64,000 bases of DNA from NCBI GenBank assembly GCA_950295325.1, contig OX485808.1, positions 20,912,527 through 20,976,526 of the forward strand. The letters are read 5' to 3'. The stretch comes from Polytrichum commune. Its lineage: Eukaryota; Streptophyta; Polytrichopsida; Polytrichales; Polytrichaceae. A program made the position numbers and the translations under genes. Shown piece after piece: positions 17,337 through 31,153 of the stretch. Position 1 is the stretch's first letter. Every line of letters starts with the position of its first letter. Under the pieces are notes generated by a model. The model had not been told where the DNA came from. It saw only the letters and a program-made list of their open reading frames with translations, and made no database searches.

Positions 17337-17349
17337 TTACCAAGCTGGA
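17337..17349 (+). repeat. LINE target-site duplication, left copy
   Basis: TTACCAAGCTGGA occurs here and again at 31141-31153, exactly flanking the large LINE. Confidence 0.95.
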
Positions 17350-18082
17350 ATATCTATTGCGTGTGAATCGATGAGGAGCTGCTAAGGGCTCCGTATTTTC
17401 TGGTATGGTGTGAGATTGTGAAGTAAGCCGCTGGAGACTAGTGCGTGTGCTGCCAGGAGCTGGCCTCGCAGTGACCCCGCATACACTAGACAACAGATGG
17501 TCAGGGTGCTTGAAGAGGTGATTGGATGTGTTGAGGGGTACTTGTGAATGCTCAAAGTCCCAGATCTAGAGACTCAAGCGTGTAAATGATAGTTAGATCT
17601 CAAGGGGAAGAGTACTCTGAAAGAGCTGGGGCTCCGATTGGTTGTGATTGAGATTAAAACTTCATTTTTGCTTGTAGTTATCTAGATCTGAGATTTCTAT
17701 GCAAACACAGCGGGAGAGGTAGCAAACACCCAGGACTTAGGCACATTGATACTTCCGATCGTCACATTGTACCAGAATTACAGTTTCAGCAATAGCCAGA
17801 GAGTCGCACAGAAGGAGCCGAAGGCTCCTTTTCTCTTTCATTTATATCATTAATACATTTATCTTGCTTTTCAAACATAGCATAGATGCATGTCCCCTAG
17901 ATCTAGAACTAAACCCTTGTCACAAGCCCGATCCACTGGTGGGAGAACCATCGACCCAAGATAGTGGAGCGCAAGAAGGGATCGTTGCAGAAGGTGGAAG
18001 AGGTTGCATAAAGGGTGTCGTAGAAGAAATCCAAGGAGATTACAAAAAAGACAACGCCCCACATCGAGACGTACGCAGAAGA
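17350..18082 (+). promoter_or_regulatory. LINE 5' leader, unique part
   Basis: This is the beginning of the element immediately after the target duplication. Short frames are present, but none has a recognised domain. By position it should contain the internal promoter of the element. Base composition is balanced, unlike the A/C-rich ORF2. Confidence 0.5.
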
Positions 18083-18990
18083 GGAGTAACCCACAGCAAA
18101 ATAGGCAGATCTCGCACACACTGCAATCAGGGAGTAGAGCAGCATCAGAAAACCTGCGATTACACCGAATTTGGCACCGAGCTCACTGGACAACAAACCC
18201 ATCACCGAGACAACGAGTGGAGCTAGAGAAGAGGTGGAGTAATCCCTAGCAATACAGGCAGATCTCATACACATTGTATTCGGGAAGATGAGCAACACCG
18301 AATCACCTGTGAGTGCACCGCACCAGAGCAAGGAGAGCGGTACCTGAGCACCCACAACCCCGACCTTGCAGATCAGACAACCTGCGATTACACCGAATCT
18401 GGCACCGAGCTCACTGGGCAACAAACCCATCACCGAAACAGAGGCTACATTCTACACCGAGACAACGAGTGGAGTTGGAGAAGAGGTGGAGTAATCCCTA
18501 GCAATACAGGCAGATCTCATACACATTGTATTCGGGAAGATCAGACAACCTGCGATTACACCGAATCTGGCACCGAGCTCACTGGGCAACAAACCCATCA
18601 CCGAAACAGAGGCTACATTCTACACCGCGACAACAAGCGGAGCTGGAGAAGAGGCGGAGTAATCCCTAGCAGTACAGGCAGATCTCATACACATTGTATT
18701 CGGGAAGATCAGACAACCGGCGATTACACCGAATCTGGCACCGAGCTCACTGGACAACAAACCTATCACCGAAACAGAGGCTACATTCTACACCGAGACA
18801 ACGAGTGGAGCTGGATAAGAGGCGGAGTAATCCCTAGCAGTACAGGCAGATCTCATACACATTGTACTCGGAAAAGTGAGCAACACCGAAACACCTGTGA
18901 GTGCACCGAACCAGAGAAAGGAGAGCGGTACCAGAGCACACACAGCCCCGACCTTGCAGATCCCACAAGCAGAAGCAGACCCCGAAGCCC
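18083..18990 (+). repeat. LINE 5' tandem monomers
   Basis: About five degenerate to near-identical units, anchored by GGAGTAATCCCTAGCA at roughly 18083 (diverged), 18236, 18488, 18656 and 18824. The last two intervals are exactly 168 bp. Each unit contains GGCAGATCTCATACACATTG, CTGCGATTACACCGAAT and CACCGAGCTCACTGG. A second module (CACCTGTGAGTGCACCG) appears in the 18236 unit and again just before ORF1. Mouse L1 carries comparable promoter monomers at its 5' end, and by analogy these may drive transcription. Confidence 0.85.
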
Positions 18991-19003
18991 AAACTTACCT
19001 GAG

Positions 19004-20809
19004 ATGGCCGCGTCAAGAGCCCCTCCCCGAGATAACAACAACATGGAGGGAAGGGACCTGATTCCGAAAACCCTAGCAAAGGTTTTTGGGGACGAGGAAG
19101 ACATAATGGAGATTGACTCGCCTACTCAGAGCCTAAAGAAACTCCTTGCAGAGAAGGCCAAAACAAATGCCCGAGCTGCAGCCAATGGGAAGAGAGCTAG
19201 AGACCGGGCCGGGACATCCTCACCCTCGAATTCCCACAAGGTGATTTCTCCCCGTAATGTAGTTCATGCCACAGAGCCCACATCAGACCCAAAACTCAAA
19301 TTATGGTTAGGATTTGAAGTCATGGAAAAACTTGCAATTGAGCAAGGAATTGATGAGTTATTTAATGATGAAACCATTGCTGATAGAACCACAAGAGGCA
19401 TCCCCCGTAAGGAAGCCGAGGAATTAGAGAGTGTAAGCATTTCATACCCAAGAGTGCCACAAACTTTGTACCCAAGTGAGAGAAGTGATGGATTACCGGG
19501 TCAACATCTTAACCTCACTCAACTCCCATCAGAGATAGAAACTGATCCCATCTCTTGCATGTCCCTAGACTTTCAAATTGCCATTCATTTTCAACTCCCC
19601 AACAACCCCCTATTTCATAACCATGTCAAAGAGCTTGTTAAAGAGAGGCTAAATGACATGCACATTCCACTAGGAACTAACCTCATCGAACCTATCTCGG
19701 TTCTATGCATGAGTATTAAGAGAGGAGGGGTTAAGGGCGTTTGGGTTGGGATAGTCAAACTCCACCTCCTTCACCCCCAAACCGATGGAGTAGCCTTACT
19801 CACGGGTCTTAGACCCTTCATTCTCCACCTTGAGCCCCACTCAAATGTTGGAAGCCTAGGCAAGATATGTAAATCATATCACTCCATTGCTAGGAATAAC
19901 AACCTCTCCATCAAAATTTCAAATGACACTCTAGTAGGATTGACATCTCATGCTCTCTTTCTTGATATCCTTGAAAATAGCTTTAGAAGAGGTCATAACT
20001 TTGAAATTGTAGAAATACAAAAGACCACCGCTAACAACCATGCCTACATTGTTGCTCCTACCCCCCTACAAGCTAAGAAAATACAAACCCTCCAAATATC
20101 CACACACCACCAAATTCTTGATGGGCAAGTAACAAAGGGCCCCTCTCTTACTATGGAGCAAAAGGCAAGGAAAGAGGCTCTTACCCTAACATTCTACAAC
20201 CTCCCCATTTTGATGAATATTGAAGACACCTCCCTTGAAATTTGCAAGGTACTAGGAACCAAAAATGTGGTATCCATTTGGTTCCACAAGCAAGATGGCT
20301 TGAGACACAATGGGAGTGCCAATGTGGAATGCCTCAACCCCTTTGTGTATAGGAAGCTTGTGGGTAAAGAAGCAAAAATTGGGGCCTACCATGTGGAAAT
20401 TACCCCACACCGCCGTAGCCTAGATGGTAATGACAAACCCCCCAAAGAGTTACTAATCAAATTTGGTTTTGAAGATACTAATACGTGTTTGGTAAACACA
20501 ATTGAAGCCATCCAAAACCAAACACAAGGAGAAGAAAGTGCAACAAAGGGGGATGTTCTTACTGTCATGAAAGAGGCCATTGAGGAAGGTAACAAAAAAC
20601 TCAAACTTGAACTCCACAAGGATATGAAGGAGTTAAAAGATGACATAGTAAGAGAAGCACACATCTATGCGGATGAAATAAACGATAAACTCAAAAAACA
20701 GATGATGGACATCCAAAGCACCTTGACTTTGGCACTTACGGGAATGCAACAAATTACGGGTGTGGTTAAACCAAACCTTATGCTAAAGGACCAACCAAAT
20801 GTGGATTGA
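19004..20809 (+). CDS. LINE ORF1 protein (RRM-like domain plus coiled coil)
   Basis: A 601-residue open frame immediately upstream of the ORF2 block of the LINE, in the position of LINE ORF1 nucleic-acid-binding proteins. Residues about 392-468 look like an RNA-recognition motif: an RNP2-like strand LTFYNLP, an RNP1-like strand GSANVECL and the alternating beta/alpha pattern. Residues about 515-580 are rich in charged heptads (for example KKLKLELHKDMKELKDD) and should form a coiled coil, probably for oligomerisation. A second weak RRM-like stretch may lie around 185-285. No CCHC knuckle is seen. The order RRM then coiled coil is the reverse of mammalian L1 ORF1. I chose the first ATG; an in-frame ATG at 19043 is an alternative. 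Base composition is ordinary, in sharp contrast to the following A/C-rich sequence. Confidence 0.85.
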   Translation: MAASRAPPRDNNNMEGRDLIPKTLAKVFGDEEDIMEIDSPTQSLKKLLAEKAKTNARAAANGKRARDRAGTSSPSNSHKVISPRNVVHATEPTSDPKLKLWLGFEVMEKLAIEQGIDELFNDETIADRTTRGIPRKEAEELESVSISYPRVPQTLYPSERSDGLPGQHLNLTQLPSEIETDPISCMSLDFQIAIHFQLPNNPLFHNHVKELVKERLNDMHIPLGTNLIEPISVLCMSIKRGGVKGVWVGIVKLHLLHPQTDGVALLTGLRPFILHLEPHSNVGSLGKICKSYHSIARNNNLSIKISNDTLVGLTSHALFLDILENSFRRGHNFEIVEIQKTTANNHAYIVAPTPLQAKKIQTLQISTHHQILDGQVTKGPSLTMEQKARKEALTLTFYNLPILMNIEDTSLEICKVLGTKNVVSIWFHKQDGLRHNGSANVECLNPFVYRKLVGKEAKIGAYHVEITPHRRSLDGNDKPPKELLIKFGFEDTNTCLVNTIEAIQNQTQGEESATKGDVLTVMKEAIEEGNKKLKLELHKDMKELKDDIVREAHIYADEINDKLKKQMMDIQSTLTLALTGMQQITGVVKPNLMLKDQPNVD

Positions 20810-23596
20810 CCACAAACCGCCAAGAAATAAAAAAGTATTTATCACAATACTACCATATACATATATACATATATAGACATATACATGAAACATATACTGG
20901 AATAACTACAAAATACCATAACAACAAAGAAGGTATTCCACAACACCCAAAAAACCATATGGAATACAAATACAAAACATGCCTCATATACCCGAATAAA
21001 TACAATATACAACAAAAAACTACATACCCAATACTTAAACCAAAATACAATCCCCACATACAAAACAACAAACATAGAAAGTACTACCATTCAACGTACA
21101 ATGGTCACACAAAGCATACCCTCAACTCAAAATACCTCCCACCTCATTCAAAAAACAATCTCCATACGAAATACGGTAAGTGCCCAAAACGCATACTCCA
21201 TCCAACGAACGGATGTCATCTAAAACGCATATTTCATCCAAAACATAGTTCACACCCAAAACAAGCAACACATCCCAACTCAAAACCACACCTACAAAAT
21301 AAACTTCACTCTAAACACAACCCACATCTAAACCCCAAACCCTGCCCCCTCTCAAACCCTAACTCCTATTTCAATCACAAAAGACACCCAAAAAGCAAAA
21401 TGGCATCGGCCTACCGGCCTTACCACAATCCTAATGGCCAACATCACTTCATAAATAATTGGAAACCTCACTCAATAACAATTCAAATACCAACAAACCA
21501 TGCAAAATTACACTCCGTACCCAAACAACCAAAAAACATTATACCCACCCTACCCAATATCCCTCCCATAACAAAACTTGCACTCACCAAATATCAAAAA
21601 CCAAATAAGAAAAAACCAAAGATACTCAACTTATATAAATACTACCTCATTACATCAAGTATATCAAGTACGCATCAAAAACCTCGCACAATAACAACGT
21701 ACATCCCTAAAGACAATAAATTACATCCTAAACATCATTCACACCCAAAGTACAAACAATACTCAACAAACAAAATGGCCTCGGCCTACTGGCCTCGCCA
21801 TAAAACTAACCGCAAACTCCACCTCACTAATTGGAAACCTACCCCAATAACAAACCAAACATCTAAACACGATGCAAACGCATACCCCTTAACCAAACAA
21901 CAAGAAAACATAATACCTGCCCTACATCACACCTCCTCTAAAATTAACCGCGCACTCATTAAAATACCAAAAATCAAAACAACTAACCTACATAAATACT
22001 ACCCCTCTACCTCAAGTACAACAAAAGTAAATCAAATATCTATAAACAAACCAAATTACACTAACCACCCACACAACAACAACCCAAAACATACTCTCCG
22101 AACAAAACACACCACACATCCAAATTATACTTCTCATCCAAAACACAAAATACAACGGCCTCACTCACAATGTAGGTACCTCACAAGCAACGAACTTCAT
22201 CCTACATCCAAACCGCATCCAAAATATAGGCTACACCCTAAACAAAGGCCACACCCACAACTAAATCCCCCCCTCACATCTAAACAATCAAGTAACATTA
22301 CACATGCCCTGAATTACGGAAAGTACCCAAAACACATACCACATCCAATGAACTACCTCCATCCAAGATATGGATCCCATCCAAAACACATAAGCCACTC
22401 AACACATATATCTCATCCAAAACATAACCCACATCATGAACAAGGAACCTACCCTAACCTAAAGGCATGCCAACAAAATAGACTACATCCTAAACATAAA
22501 CCCCAACAAAAATCCGTACTCTACCCCCACTCACAACCAGACCCCTACTCAAAATACAAACGACACCCAACAAACAAAATGGCCTCGGCCTACCGGCCTC
22601 GCCACAAAACTAACCGAAAAAATCACCTCACCAACTGGAAACCTACCTTAGTAACAAATCAAGTACCTAAATACTATGTGAACTCACGCCCCTTATCTAA
22701 ACAACAGAAAACATAATACCCACCCTACACCACATCCCCTCTACAACAAAACTAACATTCATCAAAAATCAAAAACCAAGTAAGACACAACCAAAAACAA
22801 CTAACCTATATAGATACTTCCCTACTATCTCAAGTACATCAAATATTAAACTTATAAATGTACCAAATTACACTAACAACTACACAAAATACAACCCCCG
22901 AACACAACACACTACGCACCCAAATTTTACCACCCATCCAAAACAAAAAATACAACAGCCTCTCTCACAATACAAGTACTCATCAAAAAATAGATTCCAC
23001 CCTAAACTCAAACCACATCCAAAGCATAGTTTACATCCTAAACACAATACACAACCAAAACCTAAACCTTCCCCCGCACCTAAACAACCTAGTAACATCA
23101 CACACACCCCACCCAACCCGATTACCATAATTAAAACCATAAGCATGAAAAACCTAAAAACAAACAAAACACGCCCTTCACCCAATCAATTAGGAAATAT
23201 AACACCCCCCCCCCCCCACAACAAGATTCCTACCCAAAACAAAAAATACCTCGGTCCCACCCACAATACTATTCTCATCCAAGATATAGCCCTCACCAAA
23301 AGCACAATCTTCATCCAAAGGGTAAGCTTCATCCAAACCATAGAGTCCACCTAAAACATATACTTCATCCAAAAGCCAAAATATACCCAAAACACAAATA
23401 CCAACAACCGTATTGGTACCAACCAAAACAAGAAACCCAATCCAACTCAAAATCTCACAAGCCTCACCCTACATACAACTTGTACCTAAACCCCACACCT
23501 TACCCCCACTCCAAACACCACCTACACCCTAAATACAAACCCTACCAAAAACATAAACACCCATATTCAAAATACAATCCCTACCCAAATAACAAA
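20810..23596 (+). repeat. A/C-rich block of tandemly repeated ORF2 leaders
   Basis: Between ORF1 and the working ORF2 start lie three decayed copies of the ORF2 N-terminus. Each copy starts with an ATG in the phrase AAAATGGCMTCGGCCTAC (21400, 21775, 22579), and the functional one follows at 23597. Each start encodes MASAYRP/WPRH and is followed by a tract with NWKP about 20 residues later. Between them are minisatellite-like stretches coding for His-Pro-Lys-rich peptides (for example HPKHSSHPKQATHP). The 20806-22716 frame stays open for 636 codons, largely because this strand has very few T and G bases, so it is not good evidence for a separate protein. Only the last leader keeps the 2A-like motif. 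Confidence 0.75.
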
Positions 23597-26500
23597 ATGG
23601 CCTCGGCCTACCGGCCTCGCCACATAAATAACACATACCACTTCATAAAAAATTGGAAACCTAACTCAGTAACAAACCCACTACCTACAAACAATGCAAC
23701 GTCACACTTCTCACCCGAACTAGTAGAAAAAACCACTCCCGCTATGCCTAACCTCTTTTCCACAACCAAATTCACATGTTTGAAATATCTTAAAATAAAT
23801 ATGAGAAAACCAAAAACACTTCAATTCTACGGATATTACTTCATTGACATACTAGATCTACTAAAATGCGGAGATATTGAACTTAACCCGGGACCAATGC
23901 CTGATATTCTACGAACACACCCTATTACACACAAAAAAAGAGCCAACACGTATTTTATCCCAAATACTATAAAACTACAACCTGAATACCAACACCTAGC
24001 AAATACATTCGCCCCTATCCTAAAACACACACACCGACTACACCTCCAAGCAATCACCACATACCCACATCTACACCATTATACCCAAACACAAAACCAG
24101 TCGCCACCAACCCATATGCTATACGCCCTAATTATTACCATCCACCCCGCAATGGACATATGCAATAACATGCTAGCCCAACCCCAAAACTACCACTTTA
24201 ATAACATATGGACCAACACGTTAATCATTAGGCTAGCTAACCTCACCAACCCCCCTGAGCGACACATACTGACACCGCACCCCTACACAACATTCATAGA
24301 AAACAATCAACATATAATACTCCCTCAAAACTCAATACACACAAAAATATACGAATTCATCCACAACCAAGTAACCACACCCACATCAACCACCCTCAAG
24401 AAAGAATTCCCTTTCCTCCCAAACCAGTTGATAACCGAAACACTTAGATGTTTAGAAAACATCAGCGAATACTCACACCCACCCCCACTCCCAGCCGCTC
24501 CTACACCAATCACAAGAATAAACACCAACACCGAATATGAAACAATCATAATAACTTGGAATGCGTCATCACTCAACACATCATTACCAAACTTACAAAG
24601 CTTAATAAACAACTCTCTAAACAACACAGCAATCATACACATCCAAGAAACCAAACTTACTGCAAACAAATCTACGAAATATATACAAAATCTATTCCCG
24701 GAATTCAAACTCATTTTCAACAACACACACGCATTCACAAGGTGCATCCAACAAATGATGTCTTATACCCCCGGAAGAGGTGGCCTACTTACACTTATCC
24801 ATCATAAATATGCATTCCCAGGGAATGTCACCAAAATCCCCACACCAGCAAACATCTCTCCATATCTACAAATAATAAAAATAAATAACCACCCACTAAT
24901 ACATTGGCTAATCATACACATGTATATGCCCACGCACTTAGAAGACACATGTCTTATCCCACACCTTAAGAATGAAATCACTAACCAAATCACTATACAC
25001 CCTAATCACATATACACACTATGCGGAGACTTTAACAGAGATATTGCACTCAGGGGCAGACAAAATAACAACACTAACACCCCCCCACAAGAAGAAGACT
25101 TCCAATGGAAAAACTTCACCACATCTCTCAACTTAGAATATATTCAAACCAACACTAGTATCTCCAGACAAGGTGGATACAACTACACATCAAGAAGCCT
25201 AATAGATGGTTTCTATATTCACTTCCCAGACAACAACAAATTTACCTTCACTACAAACACAAACATGAATCTAAATTCAGATCACTATCCAGTCACATTA
25301 CACATCCCACACAACACACTTATAGCCAGACCCCCACCCCCTACAAACACCTCACCAACTAGAATATTGAACCCGATACCACCTGAAAACCTAGAAAAAT
25401 TCAACATAACATTCTTTGAAGAAAACTCCATCCAACTTAAAATACTTACCACACTCTTAGAAAACCACCAACACTTAACATCTGATCAATGGCAAGTTAC
25501 ATGTACATCACTGGACTACATTATAAACAAAATCTCAGAAACAATTGAAAAAACCTGCAAAGCAGATCCACTACCCAACCTTGCAACCAGAACATCGCAA
25601 CAAGGTGGTTTTCTACCACGTAAACTAGCTAGAGAATGGAAAAGGCACCTCAACACATATCACCTCATCAGGAAAGCCATTTACATAGCACAACATGACC
25701 CACGCTGGCAAGTGCACCCCATCCTAAACGATATCCGAAACCACCAACACGTCAGCATTCCGCACCCACCCGCTACAGCAGCATCCCTTGATGAATGGAT
25801 TAACACAATAGCAGCCATCGCAAAAATTGCAAATAAAGAAGCCAGAAAAATCACCACAAAATATACTAGAGACTGCATTCTAAAAGCCGTATCGAAATAC
25901 CGCCAAATGTATGAAAAAAACCCCAAGAAAATAAACCGAAAAGTCTTCAAAAACACTGAAACCTCACCTCTTGACTCCATCATTGATAGACAAAACAACA
26001 TATTAACCAACCCTGTAGACATTGCATCAGAGATTTACGCACAACAATCCATCAGTAACCGCCCAACAGTCCCCACATGCCACCATCAAAATACACATCC
26101 ACTACACTGTACATGTGGAGTCAGACAATACCCATGGCACGACTTAGAAGGATACATAATTGACAAACGAGGCGAACCCCAAATCCCCTTACACACATAT
26201 TTTGATCAAGAAACCTACGACTTCTGTCTTAAAAACCTAAGTAATAACAAAGCTTCAGGCCCAGACAAAATTTCCAACTCAATCCTAAAAAATATGCCTC
26301 CGCGCTTTCACAAATTACTTTTCCTATTCTTTAAGCACTGCTATAAACAAAAACAAATTCCCGCATCATGGAAAACTAGCCTAACAGTTTTATTATATAA
26401 AAAATGTAACCCATCACAACTAACAAATCACAGACCTATTGCACTAGCTAACACCATATATAAACTTTACACAAGTACACTAACATCTATCCTATCAGCA

Positions 26501-27775
26501 TACGGAGAAAGATACCAAATACTACACGATAGCCAAGAAGGGTTCAGAGCAGAAAGAAACACCTCCAGACAAATCCAAATACTAATTGCAGTGCTTGAAG
26601 ACGCAAGACTCACAAACCAAGATATATACATTTTTTACATTGACTTCAAAAACGCCTTTGGCTCCATTGACCACGCCAGACTCTTAGCCATAATGAAAGA
26701 CTTGGGTTACCCCAATGACTCAATAAACCTCATAGAAAATATATACTCACAATCTTCAACCATATTCACTGGCGAACACTTCGGAAAAATCCTACCAATC
26801 CACATTCAAAGAGGTACAATACAAGGCGATACCCTTAGCCCATACTTATTCATTATATTTCTAGAACCCCTACTCAGATGGCTACAACAAGGAAACAATG
26901 GATATACTTTCGGTACGTCCAGAGTTAAAATCTCATCAGCTGCATATGCAGACGACCTTGCAGCAATCGCCAACAAACTAGAGACACTACAAACACAATT
27001 AAATAAACTAGGCAAATTCTGCGAATGGGCAAGAATGGACCTAGGAATACCAAAATGCGCAGTAACTGGATGCCCAAATAAATCTAAACTTAACCCCACA
27101 ACCTTCAAGGCCCTAATCCAATCCATCAACATAAACTATAGAAACCAACCTATACCAGTCCTAAACCAACACGAACCCTATACATACCTAGGAATAAATC
27201 TCGCACTATCACTTAAGTGGAAAACACAAATAAATACCACTACAGCTAAAGTAATCAAACAATGTCAAGCCCTCGTAGTATGCCCAGCTACTATGAAACA
27301 AAAAATCAACATGGCTGATACAGTCATACGCGCTGGAATAGCATATAGCTTTTATGCAGTACCATACTCCATACCAGCCATAAAAAAACTTGACAAAAAA
27401 ATCATCGCACTCCATAAAACAATATGCGGAATACCCAAATGCACATCTAATATTACTACACAACTCCCCCACAACATATTTGGAATTGAAGCATTTTCAC
27501 TACAAAATGCCTACCTACGGTGTATTGGAGAGCAACTACAAAACGCCCTTAACGATAAAGGCCGAATTGGCAAAATTTATACCGGCCTAACGCAATTTAT
27601 ACTTGCCAAATACGGAGGTTCTAAAGAAATTACCCGTATTAAATACTACCATTGTGTTAGATCACCTATTACTAGAACATTATTTCTGCTCAAGCATGAT
27701 GCAGGAGTCCACCTTAAAAATACAATAAACAACTTCCTCCTACACCCATCCCCACTTAAAAACGCGTGGATGTAA
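23597..27775 (+). CDS. LINE ORF2, 5' part: 2A-like leader, APE endonuclease, reverse transcriptase
   Basis: 1392 residues from the MASAYRPRH start. The frame is open upstream to 23480 but without an ATG. Residues 93-100 are DIELNPGP, the 2A ribosome-skipping signature. An APE-type endonuclease spans about 315-570, with N322 (TWN), E351 (QETK), D478/N480 (GDFNRD) and D562/H563 (SDH) all kept. The reverse transcriptase spans about 860-1160, with NKASGPD, RPIALANTIYK, D1016 (YIDFKNAFGS), GTIQGDTLSPY and Y1117-A-D-D. Together they nick target DNA and prime cDNA synthesis. The frame stops at TAA 27773-27775, but homologous-looking sequence continues in the same frame beyond it. I therefore read the stop as a nonsense mutation in a once longer ORF2 reaching 30925. 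Codon use is extremely A/C-rich. Confidence 0.93.
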   Translation: MASAYRPRHINNTYHFIKNWKPNSVTNPLPTNNATSHFSPELVEKTTPAMPNLFSTTKFTCLKYLKINMRKPKTLQFYGYYFIDILDLLKCGDIELNPGPMPDILRTHPITHKKRANTYFIPNTIKLQPEYQHLANTFAPILKHTHRLHLQAITTYPHLHHYTQTQNQSPPTHMLYALIITIHPAMDICNNMLAQPQNYHFNNIWTNTLIIRLANLTNPPERHILTPHPYTTFIENNQHIILPQNSIHTKIYEFIHNQVTTPTSTTLKKEFPFLPNQLITETLRCLENISEYSHPPPLPAAPTPITRINTNTEYETIIITWNASSLNTSLPNLQSLINNSLNNTAIIHIQETKLTANKSTKYIQNLFPEFKLIFNNTHAFTRCIQQMMSYTPGRGGLLTLIHHKYAFPGNVTKIPTPANISPYLQIIKINNHPLIHWLIIHMYMPTHLEDTCLIPHLKNEITNQITIHPNHIYTLCGDFNRDIALRGRQNNNTNTPPQEEDFQWKNFTTSLNLEYIQTNTSISRQGGYNYTSRSLIDGFYIHFPDNNKFTFTTNTNMNLNSDHYPVTLHIPHNTLIARPPPPTNTSPTRILNPIPPENLEKFNITFFEENSIQLKILTTLLENHQHLTSDQWQVTCTSLDYIINKISETIEKTCKADPLPNLATRTSQQGGFLPRKLAREWKRHLNTYHLIRKAIYIAQHDPRWQVHPILNDIRNHQHVSIPHPPATAASLDEWINTIAAIAKIANKEARKITTKYTRDCILKAVSKYRQMYEKNPKKINRKVFKNTETSPLDSIIDRQNNILTNPVDIASEIYAQQSISNRPTVPTCHHQNTHPLHCTCGVRQYPWHDLEGYIIDKRGEPQIPLHTYFDQETYDFCLKNLSNNKASGPDKISNSILKNMPPRFHKLLFLFFKHCYKQKQIPASWKTSLTVLLYKKCNPSQLTNHRPIALANTIYKLYTSTLTSILSAYGERYQILHDSQEGFRAERNTSRQIQILIAVLEDARLTNQDIYIFYIDFKNAFGSIDHARLLAIMKDLGYPNDSINLIENIYSQSSTIFTGEHFGKILPIHIQRGTIQGDTLSPYLFIIFLEPLLRWLQQGNNGYTFGTSRVKISSAAYADDLAAIANKLETLQTQLNKLGKFCEWARMDLGIPKCAVTGCPNKSKLNPTTFKALIQSININYRNQPIPVLNQHEPYTYLGINLALSLKWKTQINTTTAKVIKQCQALVVCPATMKQKINMADTVIRAGIAYSFYAVPYSIPAIKKLDKKIIALHKTICGIPKCTSNITTQLPHNIFGIEAFSLQNAYLRCIGEQLQNALNDKGRIGKIYTGLTQFILAKYGGSKEITRIKYYHCVRSPITRTLFLLKHDAGVHLKNTINNFLLHPSPLKNAWM
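23873..23896 (+). other. 2A-like ribosome-skipping motif
   Basis: Codes for DIELNPGP at residues 93-100 of ORF2, preceded by the hydrophobic stretch FIDILDLLKCG. This fits the 2A consensus D-V/I-E-x-N-P-G-P, where the Gly-Pro bond is not formed and translation resumes at Pro. 2A-like motifs are known in some trypanosome and animal LINEs. Here it would release a leader of about 99 residues from the enzyme part. Confidence 0.85.
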
Positions 27776-28161
27776 GAAGCACAAATGCTACAGGGTCTAA
27801 ATCCCAACACCTCACTTAAGCTATTACACAAATTGCTCATACATAATATAACAACACTAGACCAAATTACCATGCCTAATGGCACCACACTAATGGCACC
27901 ACACTAATGAACCTAGATAAATTCAAAATCTACCACTCCACCCCTTCCAAACTCATCCAAAGTGCACTAAACATCGCTAATCAACTATTTTGCCAACCTC
28001 TCTGTAATCCCGAATGCCCCCTACCATGCCAACGACACCATCCATCCAGATCCCTCAAAGACAAATATATACTAAGACACCACAACATTCTACCTCACCT
28101 ACCGACTCCCCCCAAATCCTCCCATCACCCCTCTACCCCCTCCCCCCAACAACATACTTAA
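27776..28161 (+). pseudogene. Lesion zone inside LINE ORF2
   Basis: After the stop at 27773-27775 the same frame stays open up to a perfect 14-bp tandem duplication of TAATGGCACCACAC (27878-27891 and 27892-27905). The duplication throws reading into the frame used by 27907-28161. That segment contains a Cys/His cluster (FCQPLCNPECPLPCQRHH). Reading must return to the original frame between 28076 (after the last stop in that frame) and 28161. The C-rich run around 28136-28147 is the likely place for a one-base insertion. The net changes of +14 and +1 add up to a multiple of three, which supports a single ancestral ORF2. Confidence 0.75.
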
Positions 28162-30925
28162 GGACCCCCGACAATATCCCATATACAAAATACTTGATCA
28201 CAAACAAAAACAATCTACCGACCATAATGGAATAAAAAGAACAGTTACGTCATACTTATGTCAATGGACTACAATAAATAACCACACATACAACAAATGG
28301 CAAACCCCAAGGGACCTATACCCCTATTGTGATGCCAACACATGCAACCACAATACCACCCTACTTACCTACTACTACACGGAAAGACAACACAAACACT
28401 TCTCAAACATTATTAATGCCTACTTCTCCACCGAACAACAAAGAGACACGAGATATGTCATACCTACCACAATAATCCCACTAGCACATATCTCTATTAA
28501 TGAGTGTAACCCAGAAAATGACATCGAAACCAACTCCGATACTATCCAAATACAATTCGACGTCGCTCACATATACGAAGATAATGGTAGGCACCTCATC
28601 ACCATCCCGAAAACCAGACTAATGTGGTTATGGAAACAATACCAATTGGCAAAAAACACCACACATGGTCTAGAACCGCCCACCCAATCTTTCGAAACCG
28701 AAATGGTTTGGCTATATCAAAGATACAAATACCGAATCCCGAAAAATGGCCCACTCAAACGTGCCCAATACACAATACCAACCCCAATATTAGATCTCCT
28801 AATAACCACATTCAATATCAACCAGTCATACTTCTCATCCCCAGTGACATGCCCCACGCAACTCACCCAATTCTACTCGCCATTCTCACGGGACATAATA
28901 TTTGGATCCTTAGGGAAAGCATTCGACCACAAATGGCAAGGAACAGGATGCGCTCACCCCCACAACGCAACAGACTTACAACAAGCCATTCACTGGGCTC
29001 GCATGGCGGCCCAAAATGATCCATATACAATCACTATACTTATATCTCCGGATACCGACTGGTACAAAAACCCAAACCCGCACATAGGTCCATTCTTGGA
29101 CACACACATCATTGCCCAATTTGCAGCCGATACGATTGCATATGAAGAACCCACAATACCTCCCGAACTCAATATTACAAGAAAAGAACCGTCTACCCTA
29201 CAAATATTTTGTATCCACCACCAAAACAATAATATAGGCACCTATGAACAAATGAAATTACTAAAGGACATAGCAGACAATATCCAAATATTACAAAGCC
29301 ACACCCAAATTGCACCACCCGCCCCTTCAAACATCACAGTGAACTCTAGTAAAAAATGGTCTAAATCAAATTACCCAAAGATACCCCCAAACAATAACAC
29401 CCCCACCCCACAACTCCCAAACTACCAAACGAACCTACCACTAAAATTCCACCCCCAATTCAGCTACTACACTGATGGCTCCTTTATGAAACCCAAAGAA
29501 ATAGCCCCTGGGGAATGGAGAAGAGAAAGAGTTGGATACGGTATCTACAGCCCCAAAGGGCTAAACATCGCCAATAGATTACATGGACATCAAAACATAT
29601 TACGAGCAGAAATGATTGCTATACACGAAACACTAAGCATCATCAACACACAATATCCCAACGAACCCGCATTCATATTCACAGACAGTCTAAATGTATT
29701 ATACCTACTTAACACTCAAATTAAACACCCCACACTTCATAATAGTCACCCAGACCAAACCACACTAGCCTCCATGGTAAAAACTCTTCAAAAAAGGACA
29801 CAACCAATTACACTATACAAAGTTAGAGCACACGTCAACATTGACGGCAATGAAAAAGCAGACAAACTAGCAAAAGAAGGATTAGAATTAGAGCACAGAA
29901 TTGCCGCCCACCCATACGAACATGCCCACGCCACCCCTTACTATTACCAAAAAGACGTATGGGCCTCGATGGAAGACGTTCCGGACAAAGGCCCAGTTAG
30001 ATTCTTAGAAAAACAAATTAAAAAATATGATAGGGAAAAGAACCTAGCAATCATGGCCACACAAACCTCCAACACCTGTAAATGGACAGAAAACATAGAG
30101 ATAGACAACGAGTTGTCGAACGAGTTCTGGACAGATCCCGCTATCACCGACAAACAAAAATCATGCCTCATCAAATTCCGCACAGGAACCTACATGGGGA
30201 ATGCGAGAAAACAAATGTTTTTTGGCCACCAAAGATTTCCCACTATCACGTGCCCCATATGCAACTCAAATGAACCAGATACATGGATACATGTATTACT
30301 TACATGTAAACACCAACATATACACTCACTTAGAGTTAAAAGACATAACAAAGCAGTCGGAGAAATTAAGAAGCTCCTAATCTCATCAGAAAAATCCCGA
30401 TGCTTTACTCTCATGAATGCTGGCACCTTCAATAACAACCCCCAAGAAAACACAGTCCCCAATTGGCTACTCCCCTGCACATGTAGTACACAAAGATGTC
30501 ACTGCAACGCAAGATTTAGACCTGATATCCTCTGTGTTAAAGGACTACCCTATCAAAATGCCCCTCCCAGAGATGTCGACCCTAACCTTACCATACAATT
30601 CATTGAATTCACATACTGCAATGACAGATTCTCCCCAGAAGCAATTGAAGCAAAAAATAATAAATACAACTCACTAATTGCTAGCATTGCTTCCAAAGGA
30701 TGGAAAATCGAACCACTTATTGTTATCACTGCTGGTGCCAGAGCGATTGCCCACATCCCATCTATGAAAGCACTAGAGACCAACTTCAAAATACCTATGG
30801 CCACCATCAAAAATACTTTCAAAAATATTAACACCATTGCAATACAATATGCTATGTCTATTCTCCTCCATAAAAGGAGAATTGAAAACCACCAACCACT
30901 CCCCCAAAATCCAGACCCCCCATAA
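28076..30925 (+). CDS. LINE ORF2, 3' part: RNase H, CCHC finger, putative restriction-like endonuclease
   Basis: The frame is open from 28076; the first ATG is at 28622 and numbering here is from it (767 residues). An RNase H domain spans about 280-420, with D285 (YTDGS), E330, D355 (FTDS), H404 and D414 (GNEKAD). A C-x2-C-x9-H-x4-C finger follows at C544, C547, H557 and C562. Downstream, RPDIL (P634, D635), then IEFTY (E662), then AKNNKY (K678/K681) and a hydrophobic strand EPLIVITAGARAIA resemble the PD-(D/E)xK nuclease of R2-type LINEs, which also sits after such a finger. If right, the element carries two endonuclease types, APE and RLE. This half is in the same frame as the 5' half of ORF2 and was probably part of one polyprotein. 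The nuclease call is by motif only. Confidence 0.85.
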   Translation, partial: DTTTFYLTYRLPPNPPITPLPPPPNNILKDPRQYPIYKILDHKQKQSTDHNGIKRTVTSYLCQWTTINNHTYNKWQTPRDLYPYCDANTCNHNTTLLTYYYTERQHKHFSNIINAYFSTEQQRDTRYVIPTTIIPLAHISINECNPENDIETNSDTIQIQFDVAHIYEDNGRHLITIPKTRLMWLWKQYQLAKNTTHGLEPPTQSFETEMVWLYQRYKYRIPKNGPLKRAQYTIPTPILDLLITTFNINQSYFSSPVTCPTQLTQFYSPFSRDIIFGSLGKAFDHKWQGTGCAHPHNATDLQQAIHWARMAAQNDPYTITILISPDTDWYKNPNPHIGPFLDTHIIAQFAADTIAYEEPTIPPELNITRKEPSTLQIFCIHHQNNNIGTYEQMKLLKDIADNIQILQSHTQIAPPAPSNITVNSSKKWSKSNYPKIPPNNNTPTPQLPNYQTNLPLKFHPQFSYYTDGSFMKPKEIAPGEWRRERVGYGIYSPKGLNIANRLHGHQNILRAEMIAIHETLSIINTQYPNEPAFIFTDSLNVLYLLNTQIKHPTLHNSHPDQTTLASMVKTLQKRTQPITLYKVRAHVNIDGNEKADKLAKEGLELEHRIAAHPYEHAHATPYYYQKDVWASMEDVPDKGPVRFLEKQIKKYDREKNLAIMATQTSNTCKWTENIEIDNELSNEFWTDPAITDKQKSCLIKFRTGTYMGNARKQMFFGHQRFPTITCPICNSNEPDTWIHVLLTCKHQHIHSLRVKRHNKAVGEIKKLLISSEKSRCFTLMNAGTFNNNPQENTVPNWLLPCTCSTQRCHCNARFRPDILCVKGLPYQNAPPRDVDPNLTIQFIEFTYCNDRFSPEAIEAKNNKYNSLIASIASKGWKIEPLIVITAGARAIAHIPSMKALETNFKIPMATIKNTFKNINTIAIQYAMSILLHKRRIENHQPLPQNPDPP

Positions 30926-31140
30926 CTCAGAACTTAAAAGTTAGGGTAAGGGGCAAAGGGTATTATATTAGGCGTAGGTTACTTTACTGGTTTCTTGTGT
31001 CTAAAGTGTCTACTCTCGAAAGGGGGGAGTAGATCTTCTCCTTCATACCTCTGTCCTGTGGGCTTGGGATTGAAGGTAGATCGAACAGACACTTAATTCA
31101 CGTCGGTCTCCTTCGGAGACCGAAGTTGTTATTATTATTA
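30926..31140 (+). other. LINE 3' region with terminal hairpin and TTA tail
   Basis: From 31008 (TGTCTACTCTCGAAAGG) onward this sequence is shared with the truncated copy at 14059 and with the SINE tail at 6668. A perfect hairpin (CGGTCTCC, loop TTC, GGAGACCG) lies at 31104-31122, followed by AAGTTG and a TTATTATTATTATTA tail that abuts the right target duplication. Such a hairpin is the expected recognition site for the LINE's reverse transcriptase. Confidence 0.88.
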
Positions 31141-31153
31141 TTACCAAGCTGGA
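31141..31153 (+). repeat. LINE target-site duplication, right copy
   Basis: TTACCAAGCTGGA, identical to 17337-17349. Confidence 0.95.

Follow-up and report, generated by a model that had tools for sequence, protein, structure and literature searches.

A probable Dualen-like retrotransposon family with two endonuclease modules in Polytrichum commune

A 64,000-nt stretch of the Polytrichum commune contig OX485808.1 (the window, whose positions serve as coordinates throughout) contains one copy of a non-long terminal repeat (non-LTR) retrotransposon, or long interspersed nuclear element (LINE). The second open reading frame (ORF2) of this element combines an apurinic/apyrimidinic endonuclease (APE), a reverse transcriptase (RT), a PCIF1-like domain, an RNase H, a CCHC knuckle and a candidate restriction-like endonuclease (RLE), where LINEs as a rule encode a single type of endonuclease. 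The dual-endonuclease reading is well supported by sequence, selection and the anatomy of the copies, and it is highly likely that the element belongs to a Dualen-like, dual-endonuclease family of non-LTR retrotransposons that is abundant, and probably recently active, in this moss-like land plant.

Results

Organization of the window copy

The copy and its parts are listed below with window positions and strand.

17337-17349, + strand: left target-site duplication TTACCAAGCTGGA, an exact 13-nt repeat of 31141-31153, the first three letters of which are ambiguous and could also be (TTA)n tail
17350-31140, + strand: whole LINE copy, 13,791 nt, the interval between both duplications
18118-18968, + strand: tandem repeats with 168-nt spacing in the 5' part
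18227-20809, + strand: ORF1 frame of 860 aa, with similarity to ORF1 of the C1 copy at about 19241-20731
20770-23872, + strand: open spacer upstream of the 2A motif (frames 20770-22716, 22701-23354 and 23135 on)
23873-23896, + strand: StopGo/2A motif DIELNPGP, with LLKCG just before it
24524-25321, + strand: APE-type endonuclease
26228-27391, + strand: RT with YADD (Pfam RVT_1, E 5.8e-28)
27773-28160, + strand: ORF2 break, with an in-frame stop at 27773-27775 and frame changes near 27900 and 28150
28415-29167, + strand: PCIF1-like domain (Pfam PF12237 stretch at about 28667-28939)
29462-29884, + strand: RNase H
30251-30307, + strand: CCHC knuckle CX2CX9HX4C
30341-30907, + strand: candidate RLE (RHNK 30341-30352, PD 30521-30526, E 30605-30607, KX2KY 30653-30667)
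30986-31127, + strand: conserved 3' RNA structure
31126-31140, + strand: (TTA)n tail
31141-31153, + strand: right target-site duplication, the 13-nt repeat of 17337-17349

The ORF2 of this copy lies in pieces, namely the spacer frames from 20770, a frame at 23135-27775 with the 2A motif, the APE and the RT, and a frame at 28076-30925 with the PCIF1-like domain, RNase H, CCHC knuckle and candidate RLE. The RT-containing and PCIF1-like-containing frames are disconnected by the stop and the frame changes, whereas other copies read through. A preliminary description of this DNA had assigned the dual-endonuclease element to 28076-30925; the C-terminal piece of ORF2 is there, but the APE and RT sit in the separate upstream frame. 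Nor is the ATG at 28622, from which that description counted, a natural start of ORF2, because the window ORF2 is broken between 27773 and 28160, whereas other copies are uninterrupted. That description did not include ORF1, the 2A/StopGo motif, the PCIF1-like domain or the 3' RNA structure, nor did it note that the element is 12-14 kb in size and that this copy is broken.

The complete APE that had been claimed for the N-terminal half of ORF2 was recovered: the motifs TWN, QETK, HxYMP, GDFNRD and SDH are invariant in 4 aligned copies, and all four match Pfam Exo_endo_phos_2 (best E 4.5e-8), although the window APE alone scores 21.2 bits (E 0.00028), below the 27.4 cut-off. The APE lies N-terminal and the RNase H C-terminal of the RT. 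The succession of RNase H and CCHC finger, also described beforehand, was found as a PF00075 match (E 1.5e-13) with residues D-E-D-H-D kept, followed by a knuckle that is invariant in 13 aligned copies.

Intact copies and selection on the domains

Uninterrupted 2625-aa ORF2 frames were found at three other places in the genome, with mutual nucleotide identities of 99.0-99.1% over 10.7-12.0 kb and with 12-bp duplications flanking each copy. Together with the window copy, the four long copies examined measure 12702, 12490, 11965 and 13791 nt and carry duplications of 12, 12, 12 and 13 nt, exact in all four; their left ends are defined by the duplications alone, and in the C5 copy a further 12-nt match exists upstream of the one chosen. 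Open ORF2 frames of 2912 codons (within the fetched stretch) and 2924 codons were present in L042 and L043, the latter being 89% identical to the C1 copy. The two halves of the window copy lie in different frames, as would be expected of a chimera or an assembly artefact of two LINEs. This explanation is scarcely conceivable and was rejected, because intact frames of 2625, 2912 and 2924 aa at separate places hold all of the domains, and because every long copy examined has its own duplications.

The ratios of nonsynonymous to synonymous substitution rates (dN/dS) between the window, L009, L043 and L042 copies lay at 0.05-0.12 in the APE, 0.05-0.09 in the RT, 0.06-0.09 in the PCIF1-like domain and 0.07-0.14 in the RLE. 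They were computable in 22 of 24 pairs (4 of 6 for the PCIF1-like domain, synonymous sites being saturated in the other two). Pairs without L042 (dS 0.42-0.98) gave 0.05-0.10, whereas the L042 pairs have saturated dS values of 1.6 to 3.1, so that their ratios are rough and weaken the argument to that extent. Both nucleases, the RT and the PCIF1-like domain are under purifying selection; with dN/dS at 0.05-0.14, both nucleases are therefore maintained under constraint.

The candidate restriction-like endonuclease

According to PMC5678591, the RLE of LINEs is recognized by a CCHC knuckle, by an RH with which the first helix begins, by PD and D/E, and by KX2KY, to whose first K the catalytic lysine has moved. 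In the C-terminus of ORF2, all of these were found in the published order. Over its last 261 aa, residues C43, C46, H56 and C61, R73, H74, N75 and K76, D134, E161, K177, K180 and Y181 are invariant in the 13 aligned copies, although these differ from each other (65-90% identity). The alignment was made from 16 matching loci, without L011 and L013, which are nearly identical to L009, and without the partial locus L046.

The ordered pattern RH[ND]-[RK]PD-[DE]-KX2KY, composed after viewing the sequence but from the published features (PMC5678591), occurs in 12 of the 13 aligned copies and in none of 200,000 shuffled versions of the domain from the window copy, 11 of which contained the core motif alone. 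The signature was also present in 37 of 43 fetched records holding at least 90% of the region (some of them duplicates of one copy), and the pattern had no match in 191 open frames (at least 60 aa) of 14 records without the region. At the level of the motif, the R2-type nuclease pattern of the preliminary description is thus upheld. When a profile of the 13 copies was compared by hhalign with three R2 knuckle-RLE sequences from the PDB, it scored 26.4 (E 0.0015), above 200 of 200 column shuffles (highest 22.5) and four other controls (9.1-15.2).

A number of results weigh against this assignment. The hhalign probability was 16.7% and the alignment was restricted to the knuckle plus RHNK; the PD..K core alone scored 17.3, which was exceeded by 1 of 200 shuffles. 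The pattern fits two of the three R2 reference stretches, and its knuckle-including version none of them. The knuckle spacing is X9 instead of the published X7-8, and no GXW was seen after the fourth strand. The signature is incomplete in six of the 43 records (L005, L006, L029, L036, L037 and L053), five of which have lost [RK]PD, while in the other the first K is a stop. Searches of the RLE against the PDB with phmmer and hmmsearch gave no match, and against Pfam no family rose above its cut-off and none was common to more than 2 of 13 copies, the names returned being scattered and at chance level. Single-sequence AlphaFold prediction of the 276 C-terminal residues of the window copy gave a predicted local distance difference test score (pLDDT) of 33.5.

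This lack of a convincing profile or PDB match, of a confident fold and of a core-only hhalign score above the controls is what would be expected of an APE-only LINE, in which the usual CCHC knuckle would be followed by an unrelated conserved domain with PD, E and K by coincidence; two mollusc LINEs without the RLE signature likewise end in CCHC. However, the LINE-specific placement, with RH before the core and the catalytic K as the first K of KX2KY (PMC5678591), occurs here in order, its residues are invariant at 65-90% identity, and neither the shuffles nor the frames of other records reproduce it. An APE-only LINE is accordingly regarded as very unlikely.

Position among known LINEs

Dualen, or RandI, elements of Chlamydomonas and other green algae combine an APE and a PD-(D/E)XK-like nuclease with an RNase H in one element (PMC3636483, PMC4640811), and all 8 green-algal RandI families tabulated in PMC3747384 (Table 3) have tails of (ATT)n or (CTATTT)n repeats. 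The present element shares with them the APE, the RLE-type signature and the RNase H in the same order, as well as an (ATT)n-type tail; it differs in its land-plant host, its size of 12-14 kb, its 2A motif and the PCIF1-like domain that follows the RT and precedes the RNase H. The suggested fit to Dualen/RandI rests on this architecture and on the tail. The earlier proposal of a Dualen/RandI-type element in a land plant stands as far as it concerns two endonuclease modules in one ORF2 under purifying selection, the domain order and the tail, whereas the RT tree described below does not place the element. No land-plant Dualen was announced in the titles or abstract openings of the open-access literature matches listed, which does not prove absence.

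A cysteine protease is reportedly part of Dualen in a 2005 abstract, although the papers cited here do not include it in their definition; no Pfam protease was detected in the parts of ORF2 that were scanned.

The R2, CRE and NeSL elements also have the CCHC knuckle followed by RH, PD, D/E and KX2KY (PMC5678591, PMC10499050). In contrast to them, the present element has an APE, an ORF1, duplications of 12-13 bp and a longer PD-to-E stretch, with D-to-E and E-to-K spacings of 27 and 16 residues compared with 13 and 17 in R2Bm (from residue numbers in PMC10499050). A pure R2 identity was rejected by the presence of the APE. An R2-type RLE element that acquired its APE independently, unrelated to algal Dualen, would agree with the PDB matches of the RT, in which R2 proteins come first (E 1.1e-28) and human L1 (8c8j) later (3.4e-13), and with an RT tree of 15 rows in which the element joins R2. 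Nevertheless, the 72/69 values do not amount to support, and the branches of this tree, in which Dualen, CRE and NeSL have no rows, are long. As the combination of APE, RLE, RNase H and (ATT)n tail equals that of RandI/Dualen, an independent gain of the APE is considered quite unlikely.

Plant L1 elements are two-ORF LINEs with APE, RT and RNase H, as found here. In the RT tree, the L1 rows of the host, obtained through zf-RVT, branch apart from the element; a clade with these three rows was rejected (p-AU, from the approximately unbiased test, 0.012), and with it a plant L1 identity, whereas a clade with all four L1 rows was not (p-AU 0.075). The RNase H of the element also has H where R is reported for the archaeal-like type, to which the RNase H of plant L1 is said to be similar (PMC4640811).

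No relatives were found in viral contigs in three scans. The scan of genome contigs yielded the two mollusc LINEs, which were used solely as tree rows. L057 and L058 carry LINE sequence although they are catalogued as contigs from bacterial symbionts of molluscs of the deep sea, and it is probably host contamination.

ORF1, the open spacer and the StopGo motif

The tests on the 5' side (2A, spacer and ORF1) involve only the records that extend that far. ORF1 of the window copy shares 39% identity over 504 aa with that of the C1 copy (L009/L010), compared with 85-88% for ORF2 in two long matches, and no Pfam family matched it above its cut-off. Its divergence relative to ORF2 may reflect fast evolution or exchange of the 5' module.

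Between ORF1 and the APE, the spacer contains K/H/P-rich and MASAYRPRH repeats and, in the window copy, changes frame, so that it consists of several frames and not a single one. Four spacer stretches, picked because they were open and informative by their length, are free of stops over 270-648 codons in every case, where 15.8-30.8 stops were expected from base and neighbour composition; the longest, at 20770-22716 of the window, has 648 codons without any of the 30.8 stops expected. This outcome was obtained in none of 2000 simulations for each stretch.

The spacer is followed by the 2A motif, which is present in 6 of 6 records covering this place, in four distinct groups. Five of them match the consensus D(V/I)ExNPGP (PMC12846837, PMC4981915), as DIELNPGP in the window and DIExNPGP in L009, L011, L013 and L042, whereas L043 (DIKPNPGP) departs from it by a K in place of the E. 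The protein upstream of the motif does not align between L042 and the C1 copy, whereas the motif itself aligns. This suggests that the spacer would be a translated, freely evolving leader removed by a putative StopGo.

Work by Heras in 2006 and Odon in 2013 reportedly placed 2A sequences in non-LTR elements of trypanosomes and animals. The likeness lies in a D(V/I)ExNPGP motif within a LINE ORF, and the difference in the plant host and the dual-endonuclease element. No plant LINE with 2A was announced in the titles or abstract openings of the open-access literature matches listed, which does not prove absence; in plant viruses, no StopGo/2A was found (PMC12846837).

The PCIF1-like domain

The window domain matches PF12237 (PCIF1) with E 7.2e-9 and 35.9 bits against a cut-off of 31.1, and the family scored above its cut-off in all 150 places scored (150 of 697 candidates); in L042 it reached 52.1 bits. 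The match of the domain to PCIF1 in the PDB was weak (E 0.0027). NPPF is the catalytic motif of the PCIF1 cap-adjacent N6,2'-O-dimethyladenosine (m6Am) methyltransferase. In 15 of 15 aligned copies its place is taken by HP[HPY][NT] (HPHN in the window), so that the element domain resembles the methyltransferase in the PF12237 match but differs from it in having no NPPF; methylation by this domain is therefore unlikely. No host PCIF1 gene distinct from the element copies was seen among the 150 of the 697 candidates that were scored, a weak negative since matching was exon by exon; the top score, 55.6 bits at L018/L053, itself belongs to an element copy.

The 3' RNA structure

The 142 nt that precede the tail form stem-loops with 42 pairs, 93.7% of the cells being paired in six sequences that represent about three groups. 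Changes on both sides were found in 10 of the 42 pairs (9 by the count of the folding program). The paired share was reached by none of 500 shuffles and the number of both-side-changed pairs by 4 of 500, with slid versions giving at most 4, whereas the number of further pair types was not elevated (480 of 500 shuffles were as high). The element therefore has a covarying, conserved 3' RNA structure. Rfam gave no match at the gathering score anywhere in the window.

Proposed life cycle

The anatomy of the copies, the constraint on four domains, the duplications and tails, the covariation in the 3' structure and the existence of near-identical copies are observed; the biochemistry of the following life cycle is inferred from them. 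The ORF1 protein and an ORF2 polyprotein would be translated; ribosomes would traverse the lengthy, rapidly evolving spacer, and an APE-RT-(PCIF1-like)-RNase H-CCHC-RLE enzyme would be freed by StopGo at the 2A sequence. The freed enzyme would bind its own RNA at the conserved stem-loops of the 3' end, one of the nucleases (either assignment being conjectural) would nick the target, and the RT would prime at the nick from the tail, be it (TTA)n or (TATC)n. The duplication would result from a second cut at a distance of about 12-13 bases, and the RNase H would strip the RNA.

In a more extended proposal, which taken as a whole is unlikely, the nucleases would split the labour, one strand each, with nicks about 12-13 bases apart; the recoded, non-methylating PCIF1-like domain would hold the element RNA by its capped 5' end and so aid full-length copies of 12-14 kb; and the element would be a living RLE-to-APE intermediate, with an enzyme freed from the polyprotein by a StopGo that is in natural use in a plant.

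Replacement of an RLE by an APE is the presumed origin of the APE LINEs, and Dualen is seen as connecting the two (PMC4640811). If a land-plant lineage that is abundant still has both nucleases, the role of each would become directly testable, and the lineage could help to explain how one type of cutter gave way to the other during LINE evolution. It would also mean that StopGo is used naturally in a plant genome and that a retrotransposon has domesticated a PCIF1-like fold.

Copies in the genome

Copies were searched for in an assembly of 408 Mb in 64 contigs, in which the window lies in contig C6 (G000:C6); the numbers of copies are approximate minima. PsaB from the chloroplast contig has its best PDB matches in 6l35, 8htu and 7ksq (1700.6-1702.4 bits), photosystem I chains of the moss Physcomitrium patens, ahead of 9lut (1665 bits) and of 7wfd and others (at most 1628 bits), which makes a moss the likely host. 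A query with the C-terminal 267 residues of ORF2 detected at least 144 copies, all with at least 85% identity (144 of 5581 first-look candidates were scored). More distant copies, found via PF12237, have 57-66% identity to the C1 ORF2 over the longest match, and their domain order is unchanged wherever the fetched DNA covers it. The family is thus abundant and, as the near-identical copies suggest, probably recently active.

The 5' parts of the long copies are dissimilar, and the alignment of the C1 copy with C2 and C5 does not begin until about 1970 nt inward from the left end of C1. At the 3' end, the tails are (TTA)n in the window, L003, L005 and L007 and (TATC)n in C1, C2, C5, L042 and L043; none is poly(A). 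No shared target site was apparent by eye among the 3' flanks compared.

L003 and L004 (C6:30.14 and 30.55 Mb) have an identical 3' flank over the few hundred bases compared, and therefore this region was probably duplicated after the insertion. On a 34.6-kb contig (G000:C36), the C-terminal 267 residues of L002 are 100% identical to those of the window copy, possibly as an alternative haplotype. A partial element copy in inverted orientation (L014) lies immediately upstream of the long C2 copy, and L056, one of three loci fetched through the L1 family zf-RVT, contains another partial copy with 64% identity over 198 aa.

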